From contig NZ_CP047895.1 of NCBI RefSeq assembly GCF_009913435.1, positions 2,116,501 to 2,180,500 of the forward strand: DNA of 64,000 nucleotides. Reading direction: 5' to 3'. The notes under the pieces were generated by a model. The model did not search any database. It worked only from the letters and a program-made list of their open reading frames with translations, and was not told the origin of the DNA. Position numbers and translations under genes: made by a program. Below are positions 8,631-46,142 of the stretch, one piece after another (the first letter of the stretch is position 1; the number at the start of each line of letters is the position of its first letter). This DNA comes from Sphingomonas changnyeongensis. Lineage in GTDB: Bacteria > Pseudomonadota > Alphaproteobacteria > Sphingomonadales > Sphingomonadaceae.

Positions 8631-8757
8631 GTTCTGGATGCCGCTTATCGCCGGCCGTCGCTGGCGAAAAGGGGAAACGTGCCGGGACGGGCGGTGGCGC
8701 GGGTGCGACGAGCCATCTTCGCGCCTGCCCGCTCCTGTGGCAGGGAAGGGGGAGGAG

Positions 8758-9912
8758 ATGGCGATGGATGGATCAAAGCGCAGAGCCGCACGGTTCTGGA
8801 TCGCGGGGCTGGCCGCGCTGGTGGCCGGGCCGGGCCTTGCCCAGCAGGCGACGGGGCCCGCCGCCATGCAGGTGCAGGCGGAGGATGAGGGGCAGGGCAC
8901 TGTTGCGGCACCGCCTCCCGTCGAAACCGCGCCTGCGGTCGAAGCGGGGTTTGCCGCCTTTCTCGCGCAGCTGCGCGCCCGCGCGCTGGCCGAGGGGGTG
9001 AGCGCACGCACGCTCGATGCCGTGCTGCCGACGCTCAGCTTCAACCCGCGCGTGGTCGAGCTGGACCGGTCGCAGCCCGGCGGCAATCCCGCCTCGACAG
9101 CACCTGCGGCGCGCATCCCGGCCTTTGCGCCCTATCGCGCGCGCCATGTCGACAGTGCGCGCATCACCCGCGGCCAGGCGCGCTATCAGGCGCTGACGCC
9201 CATCCTCAAGCGGATCGAGGCCGAGACCGGGGTTCCCGCGCCGGTGATCGTCGCGATCTGGGGGCATGAGACCAATTATGGCAGCTATACTGGCGGGTTC
9301 GATCTGCCCCGGTCGCTCGCCTCGCTGGCCTATGAAGGCCGGCGGCGGGAGCTGTTCACCGCCGAGCTGATCGCGACGCTGAAACTGATCGACCGGGGCG
9401 TCCCGCGCGAACGGATCAAGGGCAGCTGGGCGGGCGCGACCGGGCATCCGCAGTTCCTGCCCAGCGTCTATCTGCGCGTCGCGCGCGACGGCGATGGCGA
9501 CGGCCGGGCGGACATCTGGGGCAGCGAGGCCGATGCGCTCGCCTCCATCGCCGCCTATTTCGTCGATGCCGGCTGGCGGCGGGGCCGGCCCTGGGGCGTG
9601 CCGGCGAGCGCGCCGCCCTTTCTGGACCGGCAGGCGATCGCCGGGCGGCTGGAACCGCCGCGCTGCCCGCGCGTGCATGACCGGCACAGCCGCTGGCTGA
9701 CCGTGGCCGAATGGCGCGCGCGCGGCGTGGTGCAGACCGGCGGCCCCGCGCTGGCCGATGACGAGCTGGCGAGCCTGATCGAGCCCGACGGGCCGGGGGC
9801 ACCCGCTTATCTGCTGACCGGCAATTACCGCGTGATCCTCGACTATAATTGTTCGAACTTCTACGCGCTGTCGGTCGGCCTGCTGGCCGATGCGGTCGCG
9901 CCCGCGTCATGA
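8758..9912 (+). CDS. Lytic murein transglycosylase (MltB/SLT_2 type)
   Basis: Periplasmic lytic transglycosylase (384 residues) that cleaves peptidoglycan glycan strands to 1,6-anhydromuramoyl ends. ATG at 8758 follows GGGGGAGGAG; a Sec signal peptide spans about residues 8-29 (hydrophobic core [12 protein letters not shown], then LAQQA). The catalytic Glu is residue 171 in AIWGHETNYG, with SWAGATGHPQFLPS and DGDGDGRADIW typical of the SLT_2 fold. It lacks the lipobox of E. coli MltB, so it is probably soluble. It is the first core gene after the integrative element. A 72-bp gap separates it from tmk. Confidence 0.9.
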   Translation: MAMDGSKRRAARFWIAGLAALVAGPGLAQQATGPAAMQVQAEDEGQGTVAAPPPVETAPAVEAGFAAFLAQLRARALAEGVSARTLDAVLPTLSFNPRVVELDRSQPGGNPASTAPAARIPAFAPYRARHVDSARITRGQARYQALTPILKRIEAETGVPAPVIVAIWGHETNYGSYTGGFDLPRSLASLAYEGRRRELFTAELIATLKLIDRGVPRERIKGSWAGATGHPQFLPSVYLRVARDGDGDGRADIWGSEADALASIAAYFVDAGWRRGRPWGVPASAPPFLDRQAIAGRLEPPRCPRVHDRHSRWLTVAEWRARGVVQTGGPALADDELASLIEPDGPGAPAYLLTGNYRVILDYNCSNFYALSVGLLADAVAPAS

Positions 9913-9984
9913 TCCGTTCACCCTGCCCAGAGGTTCGATGCCCCGCCTGATCCGCCCGCCCTTATCCGCCATGTCGACGGGGCC

Positions 9985-10617
9985 ATGGTCATGACCGGCC
10001 GGTTCATCAGCCTGGAAGGCGGGGAAGGGGTCGGCAAATCCACCCAGCTGCTGCTGCTGGCCGAGGCGCTGAAGGCGCGCGGGCTGAGCGTCGTCACCAC
10101 GCGCGAGCCGGGCGGCACGCCGGGGGCAGAGGCGATCCGGGGGCTGTTGATGACCGGCGCGGTCGATCGCTGGTCCCCGCGCACCGAGGCGCTGCTGTTC
10201 GCCGCGGCGCGCGCCGACCATGTCGAACGGGTGATCCGCCCGGCGCTGGCGGCGGGATCATGGGTGTTGTGCGACCGGTTCATCGATTCCACCCGCGCCT
10301 ATCAGGGGGTGGCAGGCGGCCTGACCGATGACGAGATCCTGGCGCTGCACCGCGTCGGCAGTCAGGGGCTGATGCCCGACCGCACTTTGGTGCTGACCAT
10401 GCCGGTCGCCGCCGCCACGGCACGCATGGTCGCCCGCGACGGCGCGGATGCAGACCGGTTTGCCGCGCGCAGCGACGGGTTTCTTGACCGGGTGGCGGAT
10501 GCCTTTGTGGCCCTGGCCGCGCGTGAGCCGGAGCGGTTCCGGCTGGTCGCCGCCGATGGCCCGGCCGAGGCGGTGACCGCCCGGCTGGTCGCAGCGCTTG
10601 CCGATCTGACGTCATGA
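9985..10617 (+). CDS. tmk: Thymidylate kinase
   Basis: Phosphorylates dTMP to dTDP with ATP, an essential step in dTTP synthesis. The 210 residues carry the P-loop GGEGVGKST, the DR(F/Y) motif as DRFIDSTRAYQG, and an Arg/Asp-rich lid around ARDGADADRF. ATG 9985 is followed by a second ATG at 9991, so the exact start is open. It overlaps holB by four bases (ATGA), a common tmk-holB arrangement. Confidence 0.95.
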   Translation: MVMTGRFISLEGGEGVGKSTQLLLLAEALKARGLSVVTTREPGGTPGAEAIRGLLMTGAVDRWSPRTEALLFAAARADHVERVIRPALAAGSWVLCDRFIDSTRAYQGVAGGLTDDEILALHRVGSQGLMPDRTLVLTMPVAAATARMVARDGADADRFAARSDGFLDRVADAFVALAAREPERFRLVAADGPAEAVTARLVAALADLTS

Positions 10618-11606
10618 CGCCGCTGCTTGGCCATCAGGCCCAGATCGCCGCCTTTGTCGAGGCGATGCGCGGCGGCCGCCTGCACCATGCCTGGCTGCTC
10701 GCCGGGCCGAAGGGGGTGGGCAAGGGCGGCTTTGCACGGGCGGCCGCCGCGCGCCTGCTCGCCGAAGCGGCCGGCCCGCCGCCGGCTGGCGACGGGCTGG
10801 ACGTGCCCGCCGATCACCCGACCGCGCGGCTGATCGCCGCCGACGCGCATCCTGATTTCCGCGTGATCGAACGGCTGGCGCGCGAGGGGCGCGGCGAGGA
10901 ACTGGCGCGCAACATCAGCATCGACCAGATCCGGGCGCTGGTCCCGATGCTGGGCATGGCCCCGGCCTTGTCGACGCGGCGCGCGATCATCATCGATGCG
11001 GTCGACGATCTGGAACGCGCCGGGGCCAATGCCCTGCTCAAAAGCCTGGAGGAGCCGCCCGCTGGAACCATCTTCCTGCTGGTCAGCCATTCGCCGGGCC
11101 GGTTGCTGCCCACCATCAGGTCACGCTGCCGGATCCTGCGTTTTCAGGCGCTTGGCGATGACGTCATGACAGCAGCGCTCGCCGGGGCGCTGCCCGACGC
11201 CGCGCCGGACGAGCTGGCCGCGCTGGTGCGCGCGGGCGGCGGCGCGCCGGGGCAGGCGCTGCGCTTTGCCGGGCTGGATCTGGCCGGGCTGGACGCCGCA
11301 CTCGACCGGATTGCCGACACCGGCGATCCCCGCAATGCGGAGCGGCTGGCGCTCGCCAAGGCGCTGTCGGCCAAGGCGGTGCAGCCGCGCTATCAGGCGT
11401 TTCTCGAACGCGCGCCCGCCTTTCTCGTCGAACGCGCCCGCACCGCGCGCGGCGCGCAGCTGGACGCGATCCTGACCGAATGGGAACGGGCGCGCGATCT
11501 GGCGGCCAGCGCGCTGCCGCTGTCGCTCGACCCGCAGGCAACGGTTTTCCAGCTGTGCGGGCATGTGGCCGCGCTTGCCCGGACGCGCGCACACGCTAAA
11601 GGCTGA
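10614..11606 (+). CDS. holB: DNA polymerase III subunit delta'
   Basis: Clamp-loader subunit (330 residues) of the replicative polymerase. The opening LLGHQAQIAAFVEAM is followed by LHHAWLLAGPKGVGKGGFA (an atypical P-loop), a DLERAGANALLKSLEEPP segment and a C-terminal helical collar. The region around residue 45-75 lacks the zinc-binding cysteines seen in many DnaX-type proteins, as usual for HolB in this group. It overlaps tmk (ATGA) and is followed 5 bp later by metG, so all three are likely one operon. Confidence 0.92.
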   Translation: MTPLLGHQAQIAAFVEAMRGGRLHHAWLLAGPKGVGKGGFARAAAARLLAEAAGPPPAGDGLDVPADHPTARLIAADAHPDFRVIERLAREGRGEELARNISIDQIRALVPMLGMAPALSTRRAIIIDAVDDLERAGANALLKSLEEPPAGTIFLLVSHSPGRLLPTIRSRCRILRFQALGDDVMTAALAGALPDAAPDELAALVRAGGGAPGQALRFAGLDLAGLDAALDRIADTGDPRNAERLALAKALSAKAVQPRYQAFLERAPAFLVERARTARGAQLDAILTEWERARDLAASALPLSLDPQATVFQLCGHVAALARTRAHAKG

Positions 11607-11611
11607 CGGCC

Positions 11612-13153
11612 ATGGCCAAGCCTTTCTACATCACCACCGCGATCAGCTATCCCAATGGCCGTCCCCATATCGGCCATGCCTATGAAGCGATCGCCGCCGA
11701 TGCCGTCGCCCGGTTCCAGCGCATGTCGGGCCGCGACGTCTTCTTCCAGACCGGCACCGACGAACATGGGCTTAAAATGGTCCAGACGGCGCGCGACAAG
11801 GGCGTTGACGTGTCCGCGCTTGCTGATGAAATGTCGTGTTATTTCAAGGCAATGTGCGATGCTCTGAACATTTCCTATGATCGATTCATCCGCACCACCG
11901 AGCCGGATCATCACGCCGCGAGCCAGGCGATCTGGAACGCGATGGCGGCGCGCGGCGACCTGTATCTCGGGCGTTACGAGGGCTGGTATTCGGTCCGCGA
12001 CGAAGCCTTTTACGATGAAAAGGAACTGGTCGACGGGGAAGGGGGCGTCCGCCTGTCGCCACAGGGCACCCCGGTTGAATGGACGGTCGAGGAAAGCTGG
12101 TTCTTCCGCCTGTCGCGCTATCAGGACCAGCTGCTCGCGCTTTACCGCGACAATCCCGATTTCATCCGCCCGGAAGCGCGCCGCAACGAGGTGATCCGCT
12201 TTGTCGAGGCCGGGCTGGCCGACCTGTCGGTGTCGCGCACCAGCTTCGACTGGGGCGTGAAGGTGCCGGGGGCCGAGGGCCATGTGATGTATGTGTGGGT
12301 GGATGCGCTCACCAACTATCTGACCGGCGCCGGTTATCCCGATGCCGGCTATGACGCGCGCTGGCCGGCTGACCTGCATGTGATCGGCAAGGATATTGTG
12401 CGTTTCCACGCCGTTTACTGGCCGGCGTTCCTGCTGTCGGCGGGGATTAAGCTGCCGCATCAGGTGTTCGGGCATGGCTTCCTGCTCCACCGCGGCGAGA
12501 AGATGTCGAAATCGCTCGGCAATGTGGTCGATCCGCTCGACCTTGCCGAACGCTTCGGGATCGACGGATTGCGCTATTTCCTGCTGCGCGAGGTCGTGTT
12601 CGGCCAGGATGGCAGCTATTCGGCCGAAGCGATCGTCACCCGCGTGAATGCCGATCTGGCCAACAGCTTCGGCAATCTCGCGCAGCGGGTGCTGAGCTTC
12701 ATCGCCAAAAATCTGGGCCGGGTACCGGCGGCCGGGCGCGGCGATCCGGCTGATGATGCTTTGCTCGATCTGGTCGCACAGGCGGCGCGGCGCGACGTGC
12801 CGGCGGCCTTTGCCGATCTGGCGCTGTCACAGGCGTGCGAGGCATGGATGCGCGGCGTGTTCGCGTGCAACCAATATGTCGACGCCCAGGCACCCTGGGC
12901 GCTGCGCAAGACCGATCCGGAGCGGATGGAGGCGGTGCTGCGCACGCTGCTGCTGGCGCTGCGCGAACTGGCGATCGCGATCCGGCCGGTCATCCCCGGC
13001 TCGGCCGACCGGCTGCTTGACCTGCTGGGCGTTGCCGCCGACCGGCGTGGCTATGCCGATCTGCCCGATCGGGACTGGCTGGACAGCACGGTTCTTGCCC
13101 CGCCCAGCCCGATCTTTCCCCGGCTGGAGCTGCCGGCCGAAGGCGAGGCGTGA
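11612..13153 (+). CDS. metG: Methionyl-tRNA synthetase
   Basis: Charges tRNA-Met with methionine. The 513-residue protein has the class I signature as PNGRPHIGHAYEA, the TGTDEHG pocket, and KMSKSLGNV, followed by an anticodon-binding helical domain. It is the short form without a C-terminal tRNA-binding domain. ATG 11612 follows the holB stop by five bases. tatD follows with a 12-bp gap, completing the tmk-holB-metG-tatD cluster that is widely conserved in alphaproteobacteria. Confidence 0.96.
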   Translation: MAKPFYITTAISYPNGRPHIGHAYEAIAADAVARFQRMSGRDVFFQTGTDEHGLKMVQTARDKGVDVSALADEMSCYFKAMCDALNISYDRFIRTTEPDHHAASQAIWNAMAARGDLYLGRYEGWYSVRDEAFYDEKELVDGEGGVRLSPQGTPVEWTVEESWFFRLSRYQDQLLALYRDNPDFIRPEARRNEVIRFVEAGLADLSVSRTSFDWGVKVPGAEGHVMYVWVDALTNYLTGAGYPDAGYDARWPADLHVIGKDIVRFHAVYWPAFLLSAGIKLPHQVFGHGFLLHRGEKMSKSLGNVVDPLDLAERFGIDGLRYFLLREVVFGQDGSYSAEAIVTRVNADLANSFGNLAQRVLSFIAKNLGRVPAAGRGDPADDALLDLVAQAARRDVPAAFADLALSQACEAWMRGVFACNQYVDAQAPWALRKTDPERMEAVLRTLLLALRELAIAIRPVIPGSADRLLDLLGVAADRRGYADLPDRDWLDSTVLAPPSPIFPRLELPAEGEA

Positions 13154-13165: not shown

Positions 13166-13945
13166 ATGCAGCTTACCGACAGCCACTGCCATCTGAACTA
13201 TGAAGGGCTGGTCGAGGATCAGGCCGGGGTCATTGCCCGCGCCCGGGCGGCGGGCGTGGCGACGATGCTCAACATCTCGACGCGCGCGCGCGAATGGGAC
13301 GATGTGATCGGGGTTGCCGAGCGCCATGACCATATCTGGGCCAGTATCGGCATCCACCCGCATGAGGCCGATGCGCATCCCGATGTCGACACCGACCGGC
13401 TGATCGCGCGGGCCGCGCACCCCCGGGTGGTGGCGATCGGTGAAACCGGCCTCGATTATTATTACGACCATAGCGACCGCGCGCGGCAGCAGGACAGTTT
13501 CCGCGCCCATATCGCCGCAGCCCGGCAGACGGGCCTGCCGGTCATCGTTCACACCCGCGATGCGGAGGAAGACAGTCACCGGCTGATCGCCGACGAAATG
13601 GCGGCGGGCGACTATCGCGGGGTCATTCACTGCTTCACCGCCAGCCGCGATTTTGCGGTGCGGATGCTCGATCTTGGCTTCTACATCTCGCTGTCGGGGA
13701 TCGTGACGTTCAAGAACGCCCGCGACCTGCAGGAAACGGCGCGGATGATCCCCGAAGACCGGCTGCTGATCGAAACCGATGCGCCGTTCCTCGCCCCGGT
13801 GCCGCATCGCGGAAAGCCGTGCGAGCCGGCGTTCGTGGCCGATACCGCGCGGTTCCTGGCGGCGCTGCGCGGCACCGAAGCTGAGGCGCTGGCCGAGGCG
13901 ACGACCGCAAACTTTCATCGGCTGTTTACCAAGGCTGCGCGGTGA
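13166..13945 (+). CDS. tatD: TatD-family metal-dependent DNase/hydrolase
   Basis: TIM-barrel metallohydrolase (259 residues) of the TatD/YcfH family. Metal ligands are visible in DSHCHLNYEG, in GETGLDYYYDHS, in VIVHTRDAEED and in HCFTAS, with ETDAPFLAP near residue 202. ATG 13166 is chosen over the adjacent GTG 13163 because of its spacing from GGGGAGG. It overlaps the next gene (GTGA). The cellular role is probably DNA repair or RNA/DNA processing. Confidence 0.93.
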   Translation: MQLTDSHCHLNYEGLVEDQAGVIARARAAGVATMLNISTRAREWDDVIGVAERHDHIWASIGIHPHEADAHPDVDTDRLIARAAHPRVVAIGETGLDYYYDHSDRARQQDSFRAHIAAARQTGLPVIVHTRDAEEDSHRLIADEMAAGDYRGVIHCFTASRDFAVRMLDLGFYISLSGIVTFKNARDLQETARMIPEDRLLIETDAPFLAPVPHRGKPCEPAFVADTARFLAALRGTEAEALAEATTANFHRLFTKAAR

Positions 13946-14724
13946 AGGTCACCATCCTCGGCTGCGGCACGTCATCGGGCGTGCCGCGCATCGGCGAGGA
14001 TGGCAGCGATGGCGACTGGGGCGCCTGCGATCCGGCCGAGCCGCGCAACCGCCGTCGCCGCGTGTCGATCCTCGTTGAAAGCGGCGACACGCGCATTCTG
14101 GTCGACACGACACCCGACCTCAGGATGCAGCTGCTGGATGCCGGCATCGGCTGGCTGAGCGCGGTCATCTGGACGCATGACCATGCCGACCATGTCCACG
14201 GCCTCGATGATCTGCGGCCGCTGTTCCACCGCATGGGCCGGCCCGTTTCCGGCTATGCGCGGCCTGAAACGGCAGCGGTGCTGCACCGGCGCTTCGGCTA
14301 TGTTTTCGCCGGCGAGCCGGGCTATCCGGCGATTGCGACGCTCGGCAATCTGGATGACGACATGATGATCGGCGACATCCGGCTGCGCGCCGTCGATCAG
14401 CCCCATGGCGCGATCACCTCCGCCGGCCTGCGGTTCGACAGCCGGGGAAAATCAATCGTCTACGCCACAGATTTCAACCGCATGACCGATGAAATGCATA
14501 ATCTGTACGAGCAGTGCGATCTCTGGATTGTCGATGCCCTGCGCCGCGCGCCGCACCCGACCCATGCCCATCTGGACGATGTGCTGCGCTGGATCGGGCA
14601 GGTCAGGCCGGGCCGGGCCTTGCTGACCCATATGGACAACTCGATGGATTACCGGACGCTGTGTGCCGAGCTGCCCGAAGGCGTGATGCCGGCCCATGAC
14701 GGCCAGCAGCTGGTGATCGCATGA
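13942..14724 (+). CDS. Metallo-beta-lactamase-fold hydrolase (PhnP-like)
   Basis: MBL-fold hydrolase of 260 residues with the metal-binding THDHADHVHG motif near residue 75 and further His/Asp ligands downstream (YATDFN, LLTHMDNSMD). Such proteins act as phosphodiesterases, with PhnP (cyclic phosphate hydrolase) as the best-known relative. The start is GTG 13942 in a GTGA overlap with tatD, and the stop overlaps the retropepsin gene (ATGA). The substrate cannot be told from sequence. Confidence 0.9.
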   Translation: MKVTILGCGTSSGVPRIGEDGSDGDWGACDPAEPRNRRRRVSILVESGDTRILVDTTPDLRMQLLDAGIGWLSAVIWTHDHADHVHGLDDLRPLFHRMGRPVSGYARPETAAVLHRRFGYVFAGEPGYPAIATLGNLDDDMMIGDIRLRAVDQPHGAITSAGLRFDSRGKSIVYATDFNRMTDEMHNLYEQCDLWIVDALRRAPHPTHAHLDDVLRWIGQVRPGRALLTHMDNSMDYRTLCAELPEGVMPAHDGQQLVIA

Positions 14725-15407
14725 GCGGCGATCACTCTGCGCAGCTTGCCGGCGCGCTGCTGATGCTCATGCTGGTCGGATCGGGCCTGATCGCGCGGCG
14801 GGTGCCGTTCGGATCGCTGGCACGGATGGCGGCAGGCTGGCTGCTGATCATCGGCGCGGTGCTGGTTGCCGCCAGCTACAGGGCCGAGCTGAAAAGTCTG
14901 GCTGGCCGCGTGCTCGGCGACCTGTCGGGCGAACATGGCCGCACGGTCGGCGGCACGCTCAGGATCCCGATGGCGGATGACGGGCATTTCTGGGTGCGGG
15001 CGCGGGTCAATGGCACCGAACAGCGCTTCCTGATCGACAGCGGCGCAACGCGCACCGCCATGGGGCTGAACCAGGCACGCGCCGCCGGGCTCGACATTGC
15101 GCAGAGCGGGTTTCCGGTCGTGCTGGCGACGGCCAATGGCCGGGTCGAAGCGCGGCGGGCCCGGATTGCCGAGTTGCGGCTTGGCCCGATTGTCGCGCGC
15201 GATCTCGCGGCGGTGGTGTCGCCGGCCTTTGGCGACACCAATGTGCTGGGCATGAACTTTCTGTCGTCGCTGGCGTCGTGGCGCGTCGAAGGGCGCACAT
15301 TGATCCTGGAGCCCGAGCGGACCGTTGGCGCGGCCGAGGGGCCTGATGCCGGCCTCCAATCGGATCATATTTTACATAATGTATATTATCGGGATATTTT
15401 CATGTAG
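14721..15407 (+). CDS. Membrane-anchored retropepsin-like aspartic protease
   Basis: Protein of 228 residues with two N-terminal membrane helices (about 10-25 and 35-52) and a clan AA protease domain with the active site FLIDSGATRTAM near residue 106. This matches the TIGR02281 family found after the tatD/MBL pair in alphaproteobacteria. After LEPERTVGAAEG the last 25 codons read into the A/T-rich dif-like site (15369-15396), so the native C-terminus may have ended earlier. The following DNA is an accessory island. Confidence 0.85.
   Translation: MSGDHSAQLAGALLMLMLVGSGLIARRVPFGSLARMAAGWLLIIGAVLVAASYRAELKSLAGRVLGDLSGEHGRTVGGTLRIPMADDGHFWVRARVNGTEQRFLIDSGATRTAMGLNQARAAGLDIAQSGFPVVLATANGRVEARRARIAELRLGPIVARDLAAVVSPAFGDTNVLGMNFLSSLASWRVEGRTLILEPERTVGAAEGPDAGLQSDHILHNVYYRDIFM
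15369..15396. other. dif-like XerC/XerD recombination site
   Basis: Bases 15375-15389 read CATAATGTATATTAT, identical to the core of the E. coli dif site (end of XerC arm, 6-bp centre TGTATA, start of XerD arm). Read as a 28-mer, the left arm is ATTTTACATAA and the right arm TTATCGGGATA; the outer right arm diverges from the E. coli form. It is a strikingly A/T-rich patch in a high-GC region. Core genes to the left are all on + and most to the right are on -. GGGNAGGG (KOPS-like) octamers point towards this site from both sides with one exception found. Confidence 0.75.
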
Positions 15408-15411
15408 GAGA

Positions 15412-15450
15412 AACGCTCAAATGTCCGGATCCTGCAACGCTCAAATGTCC
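15412..15450. repeat. Two 15-bp direct repeats at island edge
   Basis: AACGCTCAAATGTCC occurs at 15412-15426 and again at 15436-15450, a 24-base period. It lies 16 bp from the dif-like site at the start of the accessory island. Such short direct repeats resemble transposase-binding sites at the ends of some IS families, but no matching transposase remains. The rest of 15451-15631 holds only small ORFs without recognised similarity. Confidence 0.7.
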
Positions 15451-15631
15451 CTTTTCGAGCGGCGGCAGCCAGCCGGCGGTTCGAAGGGATCGAACGATGC
15501 GTTGCCCGCCCGAGCGACTGTCGCAACTTCTCACCGGCGTTCTCAAGCGCGAGATAAAGTACACCCGAGCAGCAGACGTCCTTGGTGTCTCTATAGACCA
15601 GAAGACGGGTTATGTGACAGGATGAGGATCG

Positions 15632-15883
15632 TTGGAGGAGCGCACCCGCGCCGGCCTCGCCTCCGCCCGTGCGCGGGGACGGCATGGCGGAAGTCCGTTC
15701 AACATGACGCCCGCTAAGCCTCGCCTAGCCCAGGCCGCGATGGGCAAGCCCGAAACCACGGTCGCGGAGCTGTGCGCCGAACTCGGCATCACGCGGCAGA
15801 CGCTCTACCGTCATGTCACGCCGAAAGACGAGATCGGGCCTGATGGCGAGAAGCTGCCGCAACGGACAGCGCGATCGGCATAA
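15632..15883 (+). pseudogene. Serine resolvase C-terminal fragment
   Basis: An 83-residue frame matching the C-terminus of Tn3-type resolvases/invertases: EERTRAGLASARARGR (end of the long E helix) and a C-terminal HTH with ELGITRQTLYRHV. The catalytic N-terminal domain with the active serine is missing: the sequence upstream of 15632 does not encode it in any frame I can see. It is therefore a dead remnant of a transposon resolvase at the left edge of the island. Confidence 0.8.
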
Positions 15884-15898
15884 GAGGGGGAGAAAGCT

Positions 15899-18187
15899 AT
15901 GTTGCGTTCGGTGCTAGTCGTCCTGTTTTTCCTGCTCATACCCGCTGCCTGTACGGGACAGTCTTCAGCCCAGACCATGGAACAGGTTCTTCGACAAAAG
16001 ACCGCCAGGCTGAAGGCGCGCGATCCGGCGAAAGAGGCCAGGAGTGCTGCCAACAGAGGCGACTTCCGTCTTGCCGGGAGCAACTATATCGGTTTCATGC
16101 CCTCGGGCTGGAGCCTGCCGGGCGTATCGTGTGCGCTATGGACGCGGCCCGCGATCGGGAAATGGTATGTCGCCGACGACGTCATCAGCGGCAAGGAGGA
16201 AGTGACCCACGGCGAGGCTGCGACCCGCTTCGTGACCCGTTACAACCAGGCTCTCGTCGACGATCCGCTGTTCCTCTATCCGGAACTCTGCGCGCGAGAG
16301 GGCAAGCGGCCGAAGGCACGCTACACAGGAACTGTGCGAACCTATGCCGAGGCCGCGCGTAGCGCCGATCCGGCCATGCTGGCCGGCGTGGCGGCAGGTG
16401 CCGACATCAACGCCCGAGATCTTCTCGGGCACACCGCCCTGCACTGGGCACTATACCGTAACGACGGCGAGATGGCGCGCCTGCTAATCGAGCGGGGTGC
16501 CGATCCTGCGGTTCGACCGCCTTCGAGCGGGGGCGACTTCGATGGTCCGGCGCCGCTTGCTCGAGCACTGCGAATGAAGAATGGCGCGCTCGTCGCCGCG
16601 ATGCTAGATCGCGGAGCCAGGTTCGACGGTGCAACCGGTCTGTGCGCCGACCGGCGCGAACCCGGCCAGATGTTCGCACTCGAATGCGACTGGATCGGTC
16701 TTGTTGTCAGCACCGGCCGCGCCGATCTGATCGACCGTGTCGTGCGCGACCGGAAGGCGACTACCGCTGATGATGAGCAGACCGTCGTTCAACACGAAAT
16801 CGCTTCCGCATTCAATCGCGCGCTCGACGCGCGGCAGGACGATGCCGTCACCAGGCTCCTGCCTCTACTCGAAGGCGGTGATCCGTCCTTTTGGGTTCAC
16901 CGGCTGACGAAGGCGGGCCGCTTCGATCTGGCCCGGCGCTACATCGCTTTGCACGAACAGGAACTCGGCCGATCAAAGGCGGAGTCGGTGCTGTGGGCCA
17001 CTGCAGCCAGCGCTGAACAGGAAAATGCCCTGATCTTTCTCGCCAACTATGGGGGTGAACTCAATCTGCTCCCGGCAAGCCGGCTGAGTGCGTGTCGGAC
17101 GTCAGCCTCGCAGGGCGATATCGTCGCTCTTGCATCGTGCGTACGCGAAGCTGCCGATCGTCGGCTCCGTATGGAAGACACGATAAAGGCCGGCAACACC
17201 GCTGGTCTGCTGGTGCTCGCCCGCGAGGCTGCCGACCTGCACGAATATCGTCGAGCCACGATCGTCGATGCGGTCGCGCAGTACGGCACCGCCGATATGA
17301 TGACCGCACTGGCGCCGTTGGTGGCCCCTGTTCGCGTCGACCGGTTTGGTGAGCAGCGCCAAGCCTCCTATCCGGACGGTCGCTTCCCGCAGATCGCGTC
17401 ATGGGACGGTCTGGCCGCCCTCAAGCAGCGCCTCGACACCTTTACCATGATCGCCCATAGGGCTGTCGAAAGGAGCGATCCGGCGCTCGTCGCATCGCTC
17501 GCCACCCTCAGACCGGTCGGTGTGGCGCGGGCCTTGACCGGCTACATGGACCTTATCGAAGCGCGCATCCCCATGCATCCCATGGAAGATCCCACGACGG
17601 AGGCACTTCCCAGCGCGCCCGATGCGCAGAAGATGGCGATGATCCGCTCGCTGGTTCAGCTCGTCACGGTCAGCGAAGGCCCGCAATCGATGGAGGAGGC
17701 GCTGGGTGCGGCGGTACGCCCGGGTTGGAATGACGTCATTCGCCTGATGCTCGCGGCAGGGTTTCGCGGCGACAAGGCGAAGCGCCCCGACCTGCTGTGG
17801 CAATCATGGGCCGACCTATCGCGCGCATGCAAACCGTCGACGGGAGCGCTTCTTACCGGCGCCGGTGTGCGCATCGATTACCCGCTCGATGCGCGTCTCA
17901 ACGGCGAACCGCCGCTCTGGATCGTCGCAGCGGCTTGCAAGAACCCGGCGAGTGCCGCGGTGCTGGTGCAGGCGGGCGCGGACCCGAACACGCTTGCGGG
18001 ACTGGAAGGCGATGGCGACACCATGGTCGACGTTGCGTTGCAACGACAAAAGCCGTTGATGGCCGAAGCCCTACGCAAGCTTGGCGGCCTGACCTCAGCA
18101 CAGCTGCCGCCCGGCAAATCGCGCAAGCGGCAGGAGGCGCGCGGTAACGTCGATTGGGATCTCGTGCCGGACGAGGAAGTGCAATGA
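15899..18187 (+). CDS. Large ankyrin-repeat lipoprotein
   Basis: Protein of 762 residues with a lipoprotein signal (residues 1-18, lipobox IPAAC), so probably membrane-tethered in the periplasm. Ankyrin units are clearest near 171-203 (LLGHTALHWALYRNDGEMAR) and near 660-730 (GEPPLWIVAAA, VLVQAGADPN). The middle is helical with degenerate repeats, interspersed with Cys pairs. ATG 15899 follows GAGGGGGAG. The stop overlaps the next gene (ATGA), which encodes a second lipoprotein, so the two are co-expressed. The function is unknown; protein binding at the envelope is the usual role of ankyrin arrays. Confidence 0.8.
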   Translation: MLRSVLVVLFFLLIPAACTGQSSAQTMEQVLRQKTARLKARDPAKEARSAANRGDFRLAGSNYIGFMPSGWSLPGVSCALWTRPAIGKWYVADDVISGKEEVTHGEAATRFVTRYNQALVDDPLFLYPELCAREGKRPKARYTGTVRTYAEAARSADPAMLAGVAAGADINARDLLGHTALHWALYRNDGEMARLLIERGADPAVRPPSSGGDFDGPAPLARALRMKNGALVAAMLDRGARFDGATGLCADRREPGQMFALECDWIGLVVSTGRADLIDRVVRDRKATTADDEQTVVQHEIASAFNRALDARQDDAVTRLLPLLEGGDPSFWVHRLTKAGRFDLARRYIALHEQELGRSKAESVLWATAASAEQENALIFLANYGGELNLLPASRLSACRTSASQGDIVALASCVREAADRRLRMEDTIKAGNTAGLLVLAREAADLHEYRRATIVDAVAQYGTADMMTALAPLVAPVRVDRFGEQRQASYPDGRFPQIASWDGLAALKQRLDTFTMIAHRAVERSDPALVASLATLRPVGVARALTGYMDLIEARIPMHPMEDPTTEALPSAPDAQKMAMIRSLVQLVTVSEGPQSMEEALGAAVRPGWNDVIRLMLAAGFRGDKAKRPDLLWQSWADLSRACKPSTGALLTGAGVRIDYPLDARLNGEPPLWIVAAACKNPASAAVLVQAGADPNTLAGLEGDGDTMVDVALQRQKPLMAEALRKLGGLTSAQLPPGKSRKRQEARGNVDWDLVPDEEVQ

Positions 18188-18717
18188 GGACGTGGACCGT
18201 ATTGCCTCTCCTGATGGCGATCGCAGGCTGCGCTACACCCTCTTCTCCACCGATTTGTGCCGCTCTGCGCGGCGTCGGGGCCGTACCGATCACTGGCGCG
18301 GCGGGCGTGACCCGCATCCGCTACACCTATGCCGATGAAGCAATGCGGTTGCCGCACCTACAATGCCGGGCCGATCAGGGCGATCGGACGGCGATGGTCG
18401 AACTCGCCCGCGCCCTCGAAACGGGTAGCGGCGTGGCGCGCGACGATAGCCGTGCCGCCGCACTATATGAAAAGGCGGCGCAGGACCGCCCCGCATTCAC
18501 CAGCATCTATTCTCCGCCCGTCCGGCCCGGCGGTGCAGGGCAGGTCATGATGATCCCCAATGCGGACGGCGGACCGGGGAACGCCGAGGCGAAGTATCGG
18601 CTCGGTCACATGCTGGTCGAAGGCCGGGGCATCGCACGCGACGCCGACCGTGGACGGCAACTGATCACCGAAGCGGAACGCAAACATGGGCGCGCTGATG
18701 ACCCCGGCGGAATCTGA
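18184..18717 (+). CDS. Sel1-like repeat lipoprotein
   Basis: Protein of 177 residues with a lipoprotein signal ending in the lipobox IAGC (Cys16). Two Sel1/TPR-like units are visible: DRTAMVELARALETGSGVARD near 80 and NAEAKYRLGHMLVEGRGIARD near 140. ATG 18184 overlaps the stop of the ankyrin lipoprotein (ATGA); the longer frame from 18154 is not needed. A paired Ank and Sel1 lipoprotein suggests a shared envelope complex, which is inference. Confidence 0.8.
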   Translation: MRTWTVLPLLMAIAGCATPSSPPICAALRGVGAVPITGAAGVTRIRYTYADEAMRLPHLQCRADQGDRTAMVELARALETGSGVARDDSRAAALYEKAAQDRPAFTSIYSPPVRPGGAGQVMMIPNADGGPGNAEAKYRLGHMLVEGRGIARDADRGRQLITEAERKHGRADDPGGI

Positions 18718-19117
18718 CACCCGCCGCCGTTCGCTGGGCCTGCCCGTCGACGAGACCACGAGCCTATGCGGGTTGCAGGACCGCACGGTCAAGCGCTGGC
18801 AATCCGGATACAGTTCGATCCCGACCGACGCCGCAGCCGCGCTCGACCAGCTCGAAGCCGCGATGTCCAAAGCTGTCGAGCAGGCTGTGGCTCTGGCAGC
18901 CGATCACGTCGCCCGCGGCCCGGTCGTGCTGTGGCGCCATCGCACTCAGGCCGATCAGGACCGCCGCCCCCACGCCGCGACGTTCCCGTCAGGGACGCAC
19001 GCCATGATGATCGCCCGGGCAGCTGATGCGCTGGCGGCCGAAGGCATGGACGTTTCGAACCAATGGGCGCACGATAACGATTGCGATTCGTCCGAGACCG
19101 ACCATCAGAGCCTGTGA
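18698..19117 (+). CDS. HTH regulator, YdiL/Aca2-like (DUF1870-type)
   Basis: Protein of 139 residues. The N-terminus TPAESDTRRRSLGL, with DRTVKRWQSGYSSIP following, matches the Xre-like HTH of YdiL/Aca2-type regulators, where the recognition helix lies around TVKRW. The C-terminal half has the helical pattern seen in that family. ATG 18698 is preferred to 18686; both overlap the Sel1 gene end. It overlaps the following antitoxin fragment (TGATG). It may autoregulate the operon, as Aca2 does next to anti-CRISPR genes. That is by analogy only. Confidence 0.6.
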   Translation: MTPAESDTRRRSLGLPVDETTSLCGLQDRTVKRWQSGYSSIPTDAAAALDQLEAAMSKAVEQAVALAADHVARGPVVLWRHRTQADQDRRPHAATFPSGTHAMMIARAADALAAEGMDVSNQWAHDNDCDSSETDHQSL

Positions 19118-19269
19118 TGCAGCAGCCCCGCAAAATCTCCGAGCGCGAGACTCTGAGCCTGTCCGATCGAGACCGGGCAGCCCTCTTTCAGGCTCTCACC
19201 AATCCGCCCGCTCCGAACGAGCGTCTGCCGCGCGCTCTTGCGGAGCACAGCCGTCGTATCGGCGCGTGA
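19117..19269 (+). CDS. DUF1778 (TacA-type) antitoxin, C-terminal part only
   Basis: A 50-residue ORF containing the conserved tail of DUF1778 antitoxins: ERETLSLSDRDRAALF and LTNPPAPNERL. In TacA-type antitoxins this C-terminal region wraps the GNAT acetyltransferase toxin, and the DNA-binding ribbon-helix-helix lies N-terminal. Here the N-terminal domain is missing, ATG 19117 overlaps the previous stop, and no toxin gene follows. It may be a decayed remnant or a solo antitoxin against a toxin elsewhere. Confidence 0.6.
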   Translation: MQQPRKISERETLSLSDRDRAALFQALTNPPAPNERLPRALAEHSRRIGA

Positions 19270-19353
19270 CCGGTGACTACCCGTCCGGAAAACGGATGTT
19301 TTCTGGACCGGCACAGAGGCCACGACAACATCTGTCAGTTCTCGAGGTCGATG

Positions 19354-20652
19354 TCAGCCGTTTGCCAGAGGCGATGTCACTGCCAAAGCGGCAATGTGCC
19401 GTGCGGCTTTCGCCGCGCCGTCTTCCCCGGCAATGATCGTCGTCGCCCGGTGTGCCGCATCCGCCATCACTGGGTCAGTCAATATGTGTGATACGATGCT
19501 CGTGCACTGATCGGCCTTGAACCTGTCGCGATGGATTGTGGCGCTCACGCCACTCGCTTCCAATCGCGCGGCATTGTCGAATTGATCGCCGAAGTGGGGA
19601 ACGACGATCTGCGGGCGTCCCGCACGCAATGCCTGTCCAGTCGTCCCGATGCCGCCATGATGAACGATGGCAGATGCACGAGGGAAGACAGCCGAGTGTG
19701 GCGCATAATTCATGATGAGGCAGTCGCTATCGCGACGCGGTGGTCTCGGTTGCCCGGTCAGCAGCACCGCTCGTCTGCCGACGGCACGGCTGAGCGCAGC
19801 CGCCTCATCATAGAACCGGCCGGCCGAAGCGACCGCGAACGATCCCAGAGTGAAGACGAGCGGCGGAGGACCGTCGTCGAGAAAGGCTCGAAGTTCGACG
19901 GCCAGTTCGTCGTCGGCGCCGCTCTCGCTGTCGAAGAAGGGAAAGCCCGTCAGGATCGCGTGATGCGGTGCATCGGGTGGAAGCTTGCCTAACGCCTGCG
20001 ACCAGCAGCATATGACAGCCGCTGTGGCCGAGCCATGATCGAGCATGGGAGCACCCTGGCTGGACGGAAGGCCGTGTGCGGCACGAACATGATCGATCTG
20101 CCGGGCGTGACGCCGACGCAGGGTGGCGCGCGCGAGGGCGAAGAATGTCCGGTTCCAGCCCCGCCCGATGGCGGTGCGCGGCCGATGCCGCATGATCTCA
20201 AACCGTGGTGCCGTGGGAGGCTGCCACGCCGAGAACAACGTCATGGGTTGAAGCACGACTGACGCCAAAGGCAGGCCGCGCTTTTCCGCGACGATCTCCG
20301 AGGCAAGGGCGAAGATCGAACCGGCGATCACGTCAGCATCCGCCGATAATTCGTCCAGCGCTGCCGTGCTCGATCGAAGCGACGGGATGAGGATCTGGTC
20401 GACGACGAAGTTCGTGTCTCCGAGAACCTTGGCCGCCGCCTCTTCCGGACTCATGCCCAGGCGTGCGCAGATGTCGGCATAGCCTGGCAGGATCGGCGCG
20501 GCATCGAGGCCGGCGGCACGGACTTTGGCGACGCCGTCTTCGGGAACCGCCAGAACGACGCGGTGCCCCTGCACGGTCAAGGCTCGACCGATCGCTATGA
20601 ACGGGTGCAGGTCTCCCAGGGAGCCGATCGTTACCAGAAGGACGCGAGCCAT
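19354..20652 (-). CDS. UDP-glycosyltransferase (GT1/MGT-like)
   Basis: Protein of 432 residues with GT-B fold marks: the N-terminal LLVTIGSLGDLHPFIAIG motif and a C-terminal donor site with HHGGIGTTGQALRAGRP followed by VPHFGDQFDNA. It is similar to macrolide, sterol or rhamnolipid-type glycosyltransferases that use UDP-sugars. The acceptor cannot be told from sequence. ATG 20652 overlaps the resolvase stop (TGATG), so the gene is coupled to the truncated resolvase frame. It lies convergent to the lipoprotein operon. Probably acquired with the island. Confidence 0.85.
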   Translation of the reverse strand: MARVLLVTIGSLGDLHPFIAIGRALTVQGHRVVLAVPEDGVAKVRAAGLDAAPILPGYADICARLGMSPEEAAAKVLGDTNFVVDQILIPSLRSSTAALDELSADADVIAGSIFALASEIVAEKRGLPLASVVLQPMTLFSAWQPPTAPRFEIMRHRPRTAIGRGWNRTFFALARATLRRRHARQIDHVRAAHGLPSSQGAPMLDHGSATAAVICCWSQALGKLPPDAPHHAILTGFPFFDSESGADDELAVELRAFLDDGPPPLVFTLGSFAVASAGRFYDEAAALSRAVGRRAVLLTGQPRPPRRDSDCLIMNYAPHSAVFPRASAIVHHGGIGTTGQALRAGRPQIVVPHFGDQFDNAARLEASGVSATIHRDRFKADQCTSIVSHILTDPVMADAAHRATTIIAGEDGAAKAARHIAALAVTSPLANG

Positions 20653-21091
20653 CAGGGTACTTCCTCCAGCGCAGGCGTAAATGGCATCGTATCCCGCAAA
20701 ACCGCAAGTTCACGGTAGAGGGTGGATCGCCCAAGCCCGAGTTGCTTCGCAGCCTGCGCGGGACGAACACCAGCTTCAACCAGCTTGAGCGCCGAGGCGA
20801 GCTTGTCGGTGTCGAGCATCGGCCGCCCCGGTACCTTGCCGCGTGCACGGGCAGCGGCAATGCCGTCGCGGGTACGCTCGATGATGAGCCGCCGTTCGAA
20901 ATGTGCGATGGCGCCGAAGACGTGGAACACCAGCTCGCCAGCCGCCGACGACGTATCCAGACGCTCCTCCAACGATCGGAACGCCAGCCCGCGCGCCTTG
21001 AACATGTCGATAGTCTCCAGCAGCTCCTTGAGCGAACGGCCGAGCCGGTCGAGGCGCACGACGCAGATCGTGTCGCCGGCACGGCAGAAGT
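20652..21091 (-). pseudogene. Serine resolvase/invertase, 5'-truncated by IS
   Basis: Reading from 21091 on - gives the resolvase core from FCRAGDTICVVRLDRLGRSL through the E helix (FERRLIIERTRDGIAAARAR) to a C-terminal HTH with GLGRSTLYREL. The catalytic N-terminus with the active serine is absent. The break is at the left end of the IS5-type element. On the other side of the IS (from 22254) no resolvase N-terminus can be found on the - strand, so DNA has been lost there too. Confidence 0.85.
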
Positions 21092-21095
21092 CTAG

Positions 21096-21111
21096 GCGGC
21101 GTGGACAAATT
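21096..21111. repeat. Left inverted repeat of the IS
   Basis: GCGGCGTGGACAAATT, perfect complement of 22234-22249. Confidence 0.9.
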
Positions 21112-21128
21112 CGGGGCGGGCTGGATGC

Positions 21129-21356
21129 CTATCTGAGTTGATCGCCCGTGACGAATTGCACGACAAAGAACAGCACTGCGCATCCGCACCAGAAGATCGC
21201 CCATGCGGTGAAGACCCGGCGGAACGCCGTCGGGTATTCTGGTTTCTGGATGAACCAGACGAAAATATAGGGGTACCAGAGGGTCTGGAACCCCATCAGC
21301 ATCAGTTTCAGTGTCGATGCCTGTGGTGCGGCTTCGTCTATTGGCACGGCAGTCAT
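21129..21356 (-). CDS. Small two-TM membrane protein carried inside the IS
   Basis: A 75-residue ORF on the opposite strand to the transposase, inside the element's inverted repeats. Two hydrophobic segments (about 19-37 and 50-68, rich in Trp, Phe and Cys) suggest a small inner-membrane protein. ATG 21356 is the likeliest start; an upstream in-frame codon at 21392 gives 87 residues. I recognise no family. Its lower-GC, aromatic-rich sequence differs from the frame shadows around it, which supports a real gene. A passenger gene is unusual for this IS type. Confidence 0.5.
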   Translation of the reverse strand: MTAVPIDEAAPQASTLKLMLMGFQTLWYPYIFVWFIQKPEYPTAFRRVFTAWAIFWCGCAVLFFVVQFVTGDQLR

Positions 21357-21435
21357 AGGTGAACTTATTTCCCAAAAGCACGGCCTTCGCAATCGAACTG
21401 ATGAAGGAAACGCACGGCGAGATTGACGCGAAGCG

Positions 21436-22253
21436 ATGAGGTTGATTCAAGGCTGCCTTTTGGAGGCAGGTTTGAGCCGGGGCGATCTCACCGAAGCGGA
21501 GTGGCGTGTTCTGAATGGCTTGTTGCCGATCGAGCCTGAGAACCGTGGCCGAGGCCGTCCGCCCGAGCAAAACCGCTCGATCATCAATGGCATACTTTGG
21601 CGGCTCCGTCGCGGCGCTCCGTGGCACGATGTCCCGCCCAAATACGGCAGTTGGAACACCATCTATCGCCGGTTCCGACGTTGGAGCGAAGCCGGAGTCT
21701 GGGAGACCGTCGCCGTAACATTGGCCGAAATCATGGCGGACAGCGGCCACTACAGCATCGACAGCACCACCGTTCGCGCCCACGTCTCGGCAGCGGGCGG
21801 AAAAGGGGGACTCATCGACGAGCTCTTGGCCGCTCGCGGAGCGGGTTCACCAGTAAACTTCACTGCCTGGCTGATGCCCTCGGACGACCGCTCGCGTTCC
21901 ATCTGACAGTCGGCGAGGCGGCAGATTGCAAGGCCTATGACGCCTTGATCGGCCTACCCGAGCGCGCACCCGACGCCTTGCTCGCCGACAAGGGCTACGA
22001 CGCCGACGCAATCCGTGCCGACCTTGCCAAACGGGAAATCGAGGCCGTCATCCCTGGCCGGTCAAACCGCCGCGTGAAAATCGGGCATGATCGGACGCTC
22101 TACAAGCAGCGCAACCGCATCGAGCGCATGTTCGGACAACTCAAGATCAACCGCGCCATCGCCACCCGCTACGACCAGCTTGCCAATAGCTTCCTCGGAA
22201 TGGTCCATCTCGCCACCGCCAGATACTGGCTCAAATTTGTCCACGCCGCCTAG
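21436..22253 (+). CDS. IS5-family transposase (two overlapping phases)
   Basis: DDE transposase. The first phase (21436-21906) carries the DUF4096-like N-terminus (LTEAEWRVLNGLLP, GILWRLRRGAPWHDVP) and the first Asp in HYSIDSTTVRAH. The second phase runs to 22253 with GFTSKLHCLADA, DKGYDADAIR (second Asp) and YKQRNRIERMFGQLK (Glu). The switch fits the AAAAGGGGG tract at about 21800-21810, where a -1 shift joins AAGGKGG to THRRALGRS. IS427-type elements are often encoded in two overlapping frames, so this may be programmed frameshifting rather than damage. Confidence 0.8.
22234..22249. repeat. Right inverted repeat of the IS
   Basis: AATTTGTCCACGCCGC; it also encodes the last residues (KFVHA) of the transposase. 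Confidence 0.9.
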
Positions 22254-22341
22254 GCTGCCGTGAGCGAGCGACGGCGGCACCGGATACGGGTCTGCGCTGA
22301 GCCAAGCCGACAGAGCCCCCTTCCCCCGCACCCCCATCCCC

Positions 22342-22426
22342 CCGGGTTGACCCGGTGGGTCCACAGGTACCTACCATGCGGGCGGCTACGCCAGCGCTGT
22401 GGGTGCGCGCTGCGCCGCCCGCATGG
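22342..22426. other. Structured inter-island region upstream of mazG
   Basis: CCGGGT/ACCCGG (22342-22355) and a perfect 12-bp inverted repeat CCATGCGGGCGG (22374-22385) with CCGCCCGCATGG (22415-22426) enclose a further CAGCGC/GCGCTG stem. A very strong Shine-Dalgarno-like TAAGGAGGAG lies at 22461-22470. No gene is seen in 22254-22528. It may hold a terminator, a structured leader or a remnant of the lost part of the island. Confidence 0.4.
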
Positions 22427-22528
22427 GGCCCTCCTATGGACTACCGGGACAACCCAGACTTAAGGAGGAGTGTGACATTTCCGCCTTGCACAAATAGGGA
22501 CTTCCCAGAATTGCGCGAACATTTCACG

Positions 22529-23344
22529 ATGAGCGGAACGAGCCACAGCGCCCCTGCCGGAACCGAGAGCGAGACCCCGCATGCCAACCGGCAGGCTGCA
22601 CCCGCTGCGCTGGCGCGGCTTGCGGGCATTATGGCCCGGCTGCGCGATCCGGACCATGGCTGCGAATGGGATGTCGCGCAGAGCTTTGCGTCGATTGCGC
22701 CTTACACGATTGAGGAAGCCTATGAGGTGGCCGACGCGATCGCGCGCCAGGATCTGCCCGCATTGCGCGACGAGCTTGGCGATCTGGCGCTTCAGGTGGT
22801 GTTCCATGCGCGGATCGCCGAGGAAATGGGCGCGTTCGATCTGGCCGATGTGCTGTCGGGCATCGGCGACAAGATGGAGCGCCGCCACCCGCATGTGTTC
22901 GGCGACGGGACGACACCCGGCTGGGAAGCGGTCAAGGCCGCCGAACGTGCGGCCACCGGCACCGATGCCAGCGCGCTCGCCGGCGTGACGCAGGCGCTGC
23001 CCGCGCTGCTGCGTGCCGAAAAGCTGCAGAAACGCGCGGCGCGCACCGGCTTTGACTGGCCGGACCCAGCCGGCGCGCGCGCCAAGATCCTGGAGGAACT
23101 GGCCGAGGTTGACGCCGCCGCGCCCGAGGATCGGGCCGATGAGATTGGCGATCTGCTGTTTGCCGTCGTCAACTTCGCGCGCCATCTGAACATTGATCCG
23201 GAAGAGGCTTTGCGCGCGGCCAATCGCAAGTTTGAAACACGCTTCAGAGCGATGGAGGCGATGGCGACGGACTTTGCCGCCCTCGATCTCGCTGCCAAGG
23301 AAGAGCTGTGGCAGCGGGCGAAGCGCGAGGCCGGGCCAGCCTGA
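22529..23344 (+). CDS. mazG: Nucleoside triphosphate pyrophosphohydrolase MazG
   Basis: House-cleaning NTP pyrophosphatase (271 residues) that removes aberrant (d)NTPs. Two MazG domains are visible: the first with CEWDVAQSF and EEAYEVADAI plus LRDELGDLALQVVFHA, the second with KILEELAEVD and DEIGDLLFAVVNFARHL (EExxE and ExxD metal ligands). ATG 22529 gives the natural N-terminus but lacks a close SD. GTG 22472, just after TAAGGAGGAG, is in frame and would add 19 unusual residues. It is convergent with hemN, 20 bp away. Confidence 0.92.
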   Translation: MSGTSHSAPAGTESETPHANRQAAPAALARLAGIMARLRDPDHGCEWDVAQSFASIAPYTIEEAYEVADAIARQDLPALRDELGDLALQVVFHARIAEEMGAFDLADVLSGIGDKMERRHPHVFGDGTTPGWEAVKAAERAATGTDASALAGVTQALPALLRAEKLQKRAARTGFDWPDPAGARAKILEELAEVDAAAPEDRADEIGDLLFAVVNFARHLNIDPEEALRAANRKFETRFRAMEAMATDFAALDLAAKEELWQRAKREAGPA

Positions 23345-23364
23345 TCCGCCACCTGGGCAGTTCG

Positions 23365-24684
23365 CTACACCGCGCTGCTGAACTGGCGCTGGCCGGGTTC
23401 CCGGTGCCGGTCGAAACAGGCGGCAATGCCGCGTGCATAGGCCAGTGCCGATGGCGCGATGCGGACTTCGCCGTTGCCCAGCGTCACCAGCCCGGCATCG
23501 GCAAAGGGCGTCAGCCGATCGAGCGCATCGACAAAGCGTCCCGCTGGCACCTTGGCATGGCCCCGGCACAGCAGATGTTCGATGATCCGACCGCGCAGCT
23601 GGTCCTCCCCGTCCCGCGCCACACCGCGTTCGGTCGCCAGCAGCTCGGCGGTCACGTTCATCCGGTAACGGCCCGCGCTTTTGTCATTCTGGACGATCAG
23701 ATGCGGAAACTGGCTGATCGCACTCGCCCCCAGGCCCAGAAGATATTGTGAGGTATCATCTGTAAAGCCTTGGAAGTTGCGGAATATCCGATCTTCCTTC
23801 ACTGCCCGTCCCACCGGGTCCGTCGGCTTTGCGAAATGATCAAAGCCAACCGGCACATAGCCATGCCGGGCCAGCAGATGATAGGCAAATGCCGCCTGGC
23901 GGAACCGGGCATAGCCGTCGGGAAGCTGGCTGGCGTCGATGCGTCGCTGGCGCGGCAGCATGTGCGGCACATGGGCATAGCCGAACACCGCCAGCCGGTC
24001 GGCCCCGAGCGCCACCGACTGGTGGATGCTGTCTTCCAGCGCCGCAATGTCCTGCCCCGGCAGGCCATACATCAGATCATGATTGATCGACGCGACACCC
24101 GCCCGGCGCAGGCCGGCGGTGACCTCTGCGATCAGCTCGGTCGGCTGCACGCGCCCGATCCGCGCCTGCACCTCGGCCGCAAAGGTCTGGACGCCAAGGC
24201 TGGCGCGCTGAAAGCCGCAGGTCGCGAGCATGGCTTCCCACTCGCTGCTCCAGCTGCGCGGATCGAGTTCGACCGACAGGATCGGGGCCGGCGCATCGAA
24301 CCGGTCGCGCAGCTGCGCGACCAGCCCGGCCATCGCCTCGGCGGAAATGGCATTGGGGCTGCCGCCGCCAAAGGCGATGCGCCCCACCCGCACCCTCGCC
24401 GCCACCCGGCGGGCGAGCAGGTCGATCTCCGCACTCAGCGCGTCGAGATAGGCGGTCAGCCGCGCGCTGCGATTGGCGGCACCCGTGTTGCAGCCGCAAT
24501 ACCAGCAGATTTCGTGGCAATAGGGGATGTGGAGATAGAGCGACACCTCCGCCCCCGGCGCGATCGCGGCCAGTGCCGCGTCATGCGCGCTGCGCTCAAC
24601 CCCCTCGGTGAACTCGGCGGCGGTCGGATAGCTGGTGTAGCGCGGCACCGGCCGGGCGAGCAGATCGGAATGATAAGGCCACAT
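23365..24684 (-). CDS. hemN: Oxygen-independent coproporphyrinogen III dehydrogenase
   Basis: Radical SAM enzyme (439 residues) making protoporphyrinogen IX precursors without oxygen. The 4Fe-4S site is CHEICWYCGC in LHIPYCHEICWYCG, followed by AFGGGSPN and the SVELDPRSW segment; YGLPGQD lies near 215. ATG 24684 is chosen over the TTG at 24690. It lies next to the cbb3 oxidase locus, which needs haem under low oxygen. No FNR/Anr box is visible in the short upstream gap. Confidence 0.93.
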   Translation of the reverse strand: MWPYHSDLLARPVPRYTSYPTAAEFTEGVERSAHDAALAAIAPGAEVSLYLHIPYCHEICWYCGCNTGAANRSARLTAYLDALSAEIDLLARRVAARVRVGRIAFGGGSPNAISAEAMAGLVAQLRDRFDAPAPILSVELDPRSWSSEWEAMLATCGFQRASLGVQTFAAEVQARIGRVQPTELIAEVTAGLRRAGVASINHDLMYGLPGQDIAALEDSIHQSVALGADRLAVFGYAHVPHMLPRQRRIDASQLPDGYARFRQAAFAYHLLARHGYVPVGFDHFAKPTDPVGRAVKEDRIFRNFQGFTDDTSQYLLGLGASAISQFPHLIVQNDKSAGRYRMNVTAELLATERGVARDGEDQLRGRIIEHLLCRGHAKVPAGRFVDALDRLTPFADAGLVTLGNGEVRIAPSALAYARGIAACFDRHREPGQRQFSSAV

Positions 24685-24726
24685 GGCCAAAGCTTCGCGC
24701 CCGCCGGCCCGGCCAGCTATAGGGTG

Positions 24727-29270: not shown

Positions 29271-29272
29271 CG

Positions 29273-31021: not shown

Positions 31022-31032
31022 GTCGGGGTTCC

Positions 31033-41797: not shown

Positions 41798-41804
41798 TAC
41801 CCTC

Positions 41805-46137: not shown

Positions 46138-46142
46138 CGGGA

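Follow-up and report, generated by a model that had tools for sequence, protein, structure and literature searches.

The XerCD-FtsK system of Escherichia coli, with its dif site, is the basis of the comparison made here. Dif centres that diverge between the chromosomes of one cell, and a likely role of this divergence against chromosome fusion, are already known according to the available text of two papers (PMC2533119, PMC2731167). A literature search by title and start of abstract found no work on the dif of sphingomonads among the papers listed, and PMC2731167 prints one Novosphingobium dif.

The DNA analysed, hereafter the window, is a stretch of 64,000 nucleotides (C1:2116501-2180500) of the Sphingomonas changnyeongensis genome, the assembly of which (3,005,093 bp) consists of two contigs, C1 (2,869,229 bp) and C2 (135,864 bp). 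Judging from its sequence, the segment 15369-15396 of the window (C1:2131869-2131896) is almost certainly the chromosomal dif, on which XerC and XerD would bind and exchange strands under the control of FtsK. In kind, it is an ordinary dif site, composed as follows:

15369..15396, minus strand: dif, 28 bp (family alignment and profile; skew and KOPS switch)
15369..15379, minus strand: putative XerD-binding arm, TTATGTAAAAT on the minus strand, assigned by its conservation, which is the higher of the two arms in an alignment of 50 sites
15380..15385, minus strand: central hexamer of dif, TGTATA on the plus and TATACA on the minus strand
15386..15396, minus strand: putative XerC-binding arm, TATCCCGATAA on the minus strand

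The minus strand thus reads TATCCCGATAA-TATACA-TTATGTAAAAT, with two 11-bp arms around a 6-bp centre and conserved inner parts of the arms. The sequence CATAATGTATATTAT at 15375-15389 of the plus strand is the sole exact copy in the window. A sequence-only reading of this DNA had taken it for the E. coli dif core, which is correct as to the letters and not as to the strand: the arms match E. coli dif (counted by eye) at 16 of 22 bases in the minus orientation and at 11 in the plus, which assigns the site to the minus strand and leaves the plus-strand core match real in letters only. When up to three mismatches were allowed, CATAATGTATATTAT gave three matches in the window, all overlapping dif (mean in shuffled sequences, 0.03), and five in the whole assembly, at three places (dif, C1:1193423 and C2:26861). 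The place at C1:1193423 was rejected as a further dif, as the ACATAA arm is absent there. The pattern ACATAAN6TTATC has one occurrence on each of the two contigs, so that by the patterns used the chromosome bears a single site; a better dif elsewhere on the replicon, named earlier as a refuting outcome, was not found. The family profile scored 51.9 at dif, -3.0 at the best non-overlapping place in the window and at most 5.2 in 20 sampled stretches (400 kb). On the plus strand of the window the family arms are ATTTWACATAA, the better conserved one, and TTATC with variable bases; both are conserved in the 47 genomes where dif was found with at least one of four landmark genes inside the fetched locus.

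The surroundings of the site are made up of the following genes and inserted elements:

13942..14724, plus strand: MBL-fold gene, the family-wide upstream landmark of dif
14721..15407, plus strand: TIGR02281 aspartic protease gene, the frame of which runs through dif
15396..22520: insertion (island) of about 7.1 kb between dif and mazG, with AT at both junctions, delimited against locus L219 and loci of the same genus
15632-15883: piece resembling the end of another serine recombinase (by eye; Pfam matches below cut-off)
20652-21059: serine recombinase in the island
21089..22256, plus strand: IS5-family element in the island, with 23-bp terminal inverted repeats
22529..23344, plus strand: mazG, the family-wide downstream landmark of dif
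23365-24690, minus strand: hemN, the first gene on the minus strand

All checked genes to the left of dif (dTMP kinase, MetG, TatD, MBL-fold and aspartic protease) are on the plus strand. Core genes were said to lie on the plus strand before the site and mostly on the minus strand after it; the switch itself, placed at dif by the same reading, comes only after mazG, since mazG is on the plus strand and hemN, which follows, on the minus, about 8 kb to the right of dif. The site occupies the same gene address in related sphingomonads, a comparison that had been proposed as a check. ACATAAN6TTATC is present in 124 of 129 family genomes, and among 58 fetched pattern loci, which include some genomes twice, the MBL gene (49 loci) and the protease (16) are on the XerD side, and mazG (41) is on the XerC side with hflX (29) beyond it on the opposite strand. 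Relatives of the protease at 63 named loci have a dif site in 45 cases and lack it in 18; the MBL gene was found at only one of these 18 (L222), so most of them may be protease copies located elsewhere. The nearest named locus is that of Sphingomonas sp. UBA1000 (L219), where the protease, 86% identical over residues 1-207, ends in a stop codon followed by 22 bp, dif and TTCACGATGAGCGG, which contains the mazG start. In relatives dif lies in a gap between co-directed genes. At L226, L227, L240 and L251 the protease stop codon is inside dif, so that neither the site nor the end of the gene can vary independently of the other, and at L257 the frame runs through dif, as in the window. The genes mazG and hflX are neighbours in L075-L078, loci of the same genus, with aligned blocks 15 to about 140 bp apart; in the window they are separated by minus-strand genes from hemN to formate-tetrahydrofolate ligase (23365-34598).

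At the terminus of a chromosome the cumulative GC skew is maximal, not minimal. In the stretch C1:2010001-2240500 the maximum, 3024, is reached at 2138054, 6.2 kb to the right of dif, the value at dif itself being 2965; a turning point near dif had therefore been rightly expected, and wrongly called a minimum. ParB is encoded at C1:648442, which puts the opposite point at about 2.083 Mb, some 49 kb (1.7% of C1) from dif. The KOPS-like octamers of the window are distributed on both sides of the site:

8743, 8890, 10022, 12036 (span 8743..12043), plus strand: KOPS-like GGGNAGGG, with one on the minus strand at 9921
22318, 29227, 34621, 41917, 45845, 51934, 53994 (span 22318..54001), minus strand: KOPS-like GGGNAGGG

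The left-hand positions, including the exception at 9921, are as the sequence-only reading gave them. It was also right that all right-hand octamers are on the minus strand, no plus-strand GGGNAGGG being present to the right of dif within the window, and it listed six of the seven, missing 53994. The proposed switch of polarity at dif holds: 11 of 12 octamers in the window fit it (one-sided binomial 0.003), as do 45 of 52 in 230 kb (left, 24 plus and 5 minus; right, 2 plus and 21 minus), and the best breakpoint interval, C1:2128536-2138818, includes the site. With C1 cut at parB and dif, a sample of 850,500 bases (29.6% of C1, the terminus stretch C1:2010001-2240500 included) had 127 copies directed toward dif and 30 directed away from it. 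The octamer is not enriched in the window (12 against 10.1 expected), and the whole assembly has 596 copies of it and 439 of the pattern read backwards. Nor is the polarity special to GGGNAGGG, as other G-rich octamers behave in the same way: GGGGCGGG gave 157:50 in the C1 sample, and the control octamer GGGANGGG also switches near the terminus (13:2 on the left, 4:19 on the right).

Of the machinery that would act on the site, an FtsK-gamma domain was found (93 bits), and the tyrosine recombinase at C1:1880976 was taken as XerD because this model scored better (249 bits, compared with 205 bits for XerC), although neither score reaches the curated cut-off. TIGR02225 matches at C1:998657-999181 and 999241-999510 (L086 and L087) represent different frames of one place, and we infer that the gene at C1:998657-999510 is xerC, either broken or mis-assembled. 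The hflX gene (34658-35958, minus strand) is also spread over two frames, and short C or G runs are present near both genes; the split frames of the presumed xerC and of hflX are thus likely to be assembly indels. In the presumed mechanism, once sister chromosomes have been fused by an odd number of crossovers, polar motifs running from ori to ter on both chromosome arms would guide septal FtsK to dif, where it would contact XerD on the 15369-15379 arm; XerD and then XerC would exchange strands across the 6-bp centre, by which the dimer would be resolved.

An accessory island directly at the site had been noted earlier; it is real, and can be described more exactly as a 7.1-kb insertion that abuts dif and has no second dif. 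The window agrees with L219 through dif up to 15395, and on the mazG side the agreement resumes at 22521 (ATTTCACGATGAGCGG); base 15396, in the XerC arm, is A in the window and T in the uninterrupted L219. The island is missing at this place in L219 and in L075-L078. It encodes an ankyrin-repeat protein, a Sel1-repeat protein and a glycosyltransferase. In addition, AACGCTCAAATGTCC occurs twice just to the right of dif (15412-15426 and 15436-15450, by eye), perhaps as remnants of mobile-element ends. The possibility that the island is a segment of a known plasmid was rejected after a megablast search, in which none of 20 plasmid records covered more than 80% of it; in the best 10 of these 20 the matches were confined to the IS5-family part.

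Since the border of the island coincides, to the base, with the XerC end of dif, one might suppose that it is a mobile element integrated by XerCD and that dif is its attachment site. We regard this as very improbable, and the island was rejected as a Xer-integrated element, because no second dif-like site flanks it at or near its other end or occurs elsewhere in the window (best non-overlapping profile score as above); besides, L219, where the island is missing, differs from the site in the last base only, and the island contains serine-recombinase and IS5-family pieces. Still less credence, next to none, is due to a chance A/T-rich quasi-palindrome, or to a mere transcription signal between the protease and mazG, as the source of the core match. 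The site is indeed nearly palindromic and situated between co-directed genes in relatives, but shuffled sequences would yield only 0.03 matches with three mismatches, 47 genomes conserve both arms, and the position is that of the skew and KOPS switch.

A dif retained by descent, but no longer working in this strain since the second Xer recombinase is broken, is unlikely too, although less so than the preceding explanations. It would account for the TIGR02225 matches in different frames, provided that this gene is xerC. The split of hflX and the C/G runs near both genes fit assembly indels instead, and dif and the motif polarity look intact.

The second replicon, C2, carries a dif-like site, ACTTAACATAA-CATGTA-TTATCGGGGTT, at 26855-26882 (1500-1527 of locus L218), which is 28 bp long and has chromosome-like arms (outer-arm score 8.6, compared with 3.6-19.5 in 50 profile sites). 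ParB of C2 is at 118497. The ratio of octamers pointing toward and away from the site was 34:7, 28:13 and 31:10 with the origin set at 117, 112 and 119 kb, respectively, and without the cluster at 114-121 kb near parB 17 of 24 pointed toward it (p 0.03). On C2 the skew is maximal at 38.5 kb, at a distance of 11.6 kb from the site. A site of the FtsK type is likely on C2, the evidence from polarity being modest. The surroundings of the site matched 196 plasmid records; the best 10 covered at most 13% of these surroundings and left the site itself uncovered.

Chromosomal dif centres, read from the XerD side, begin with T and have A at base 6 in all 47 genomes with a landmark gene at the locus, and the first base is also T at all 45 named protease loci with a site. 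For other replicons, 40 further places were fetched from among the pattern matches listed; outer arms scored above 0 in 21, and the 19 below 0 were dropped. Two of the 21 (G134:C6a and G164:C1b) are chromosomal by their neighbours, and the addition of C2 and G164:C2 gave 21 sites in 19 genomes. The first centre base is other than T in 16 of these 21 sites, which differ from their own chromosomal centres at bases 1-6 in 16, 14, 5, 14, 2 and 3 cases, all centre-class counts being made without correction for kinship. Only one centre of the 21 (G164:C3) is identical to that of its own chromosome; TTCTTA is common to the G164 chromosomal site and its 256-kb contig. There is no evidence that matching centres are avoided within a genome: chromosomal centres re-dealt among the 19 genomes gave on average 0.48 identical pairs, compared with one of 21 observed. 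As re-dealt chromosomes give the same picture, the difference is one between classes of sites, rather than genome-tuned avoidance. A directed search for non-T centres listed 41 places in 37 of 397 family genomes, on contigs of 3.8 to 907 kb, and none of 30 fetched non-T loci contained the MBL, protease, mazG or hflX genes; these contigs are presumably plasmids. Genome G134 has a second dif-like site (L290, G134:C6:1672530) with the centre GACATA on the 1.96-Mb contig that also bears its chromosomal dif, perhaps an integrated plasmid, and in G021 the chromosomal site lies at the end of a contig, with no landmark genes beside it.

Nine pairs of these non-T loci, selected for having been linked by blastn, were compared flank by flank. 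In four of them one side was common and the other had no match, the similarity ending at the site: L189/L199 (99.9% over 1,494 bp) and L195/L208 (99.8%) on the XerC side only, and L201/L217 (94%) and L192/L193 (68-78%) on the XerD side only. In the other five both sides matched, partly or wholly. L189 and L199 belong to different genera, as do L195 and L208. This one-sided similarity suggests that modules may be exchanged between plasmids by Xer recombination. In L208 and L216 both flanks are 99.9% identical, yet the centres are GAAATA and GATTGA.

It is possible, though we would put it slightly below an even chance, that in Sphingomonadaceae the 6-bp dif centre labels the replicon and is read chiefly from the XerD side, with T on chromosomes and mostly G or C on plasmids that have the same inner arms; recombination of the FtsK/XerD-first type would then be confined to one class of replicons, while whole modules would pass between plasmids via dif across genera. 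The genome studied here, with TGTATA on the chromosome and CATGTA on the 136-kb contig, might, with the same reserve, be one instance of it. Both the replicon-class centres and the dif-bounded modules are drawn from sequence comparison. In practical terms, the terminus and the putative dimer-resolution site are fixed for a sphingomonad chromosome, and the consensus together with the address MBL/protease - dif - mazG - hflX can serve to locate dif in the draft genomes of related bacteria. With the look-alike sites on other replicons, one can test by what means XerCD distinguishes replicons and whether the exchange of plasmid modules in Sphingomonadaceae is driven by dif.

Compared with E. coli dif, the site has the same 11-6-11 layout of 28 bp, a 15-bp core identical in letters, 10 of 11 bases of the XerD arm, the KOPS-like polarity switch and the terminus position; it differs in the XerC arm (6 of 11) and, with the arms co-oriented, in the centre, which is TATACA here and TGTATA there. 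The Novosphingobium aromaticivorans dif, as printed in the available part of PMC2731167, is similar in that the XerC arm ends with GATAA, the XerD arm begins with TTATGTAAA, and the site is intergenic, near the skew peak and of the same layout, although its centre is different.

In multi-chromosome Proteobacteria, as far as the accessible text of PMC2533119 and PMC2731167 goes, the second replicon likewise has a dif with another centre, presumably served by the same Xer pair; here, in contrast, the second replicon is a 136-kb contig, the relatives' contigs are of very mixed size, and the differences are concentrated at bases 1, 2 and 4 of the centre, counted from the XerD side. As a 28-bp site on a second replicon, with a modest KOPS bias, that of C2 also resembles the FtsK-controlled Xer sites of large Enterobacteriaceae plasmids (PMC11724359) and large extrachromosomal replicons (PMC13342612), but C2, at 136 kb, is smaller than the 250 kb named in that literature, and the bias becomes weak once the parB cluster is left out. 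Finally, unlike the Acinetobacter pdif modules, as presented in the available parts of PMC12907356 and PMC11705084, the sphingomonad loci were assigned to replicon types by inference and compared by sites and flanks rather than by cargo; as in those modules, loci of the plasmid type share DNA that ends at the Xer site.
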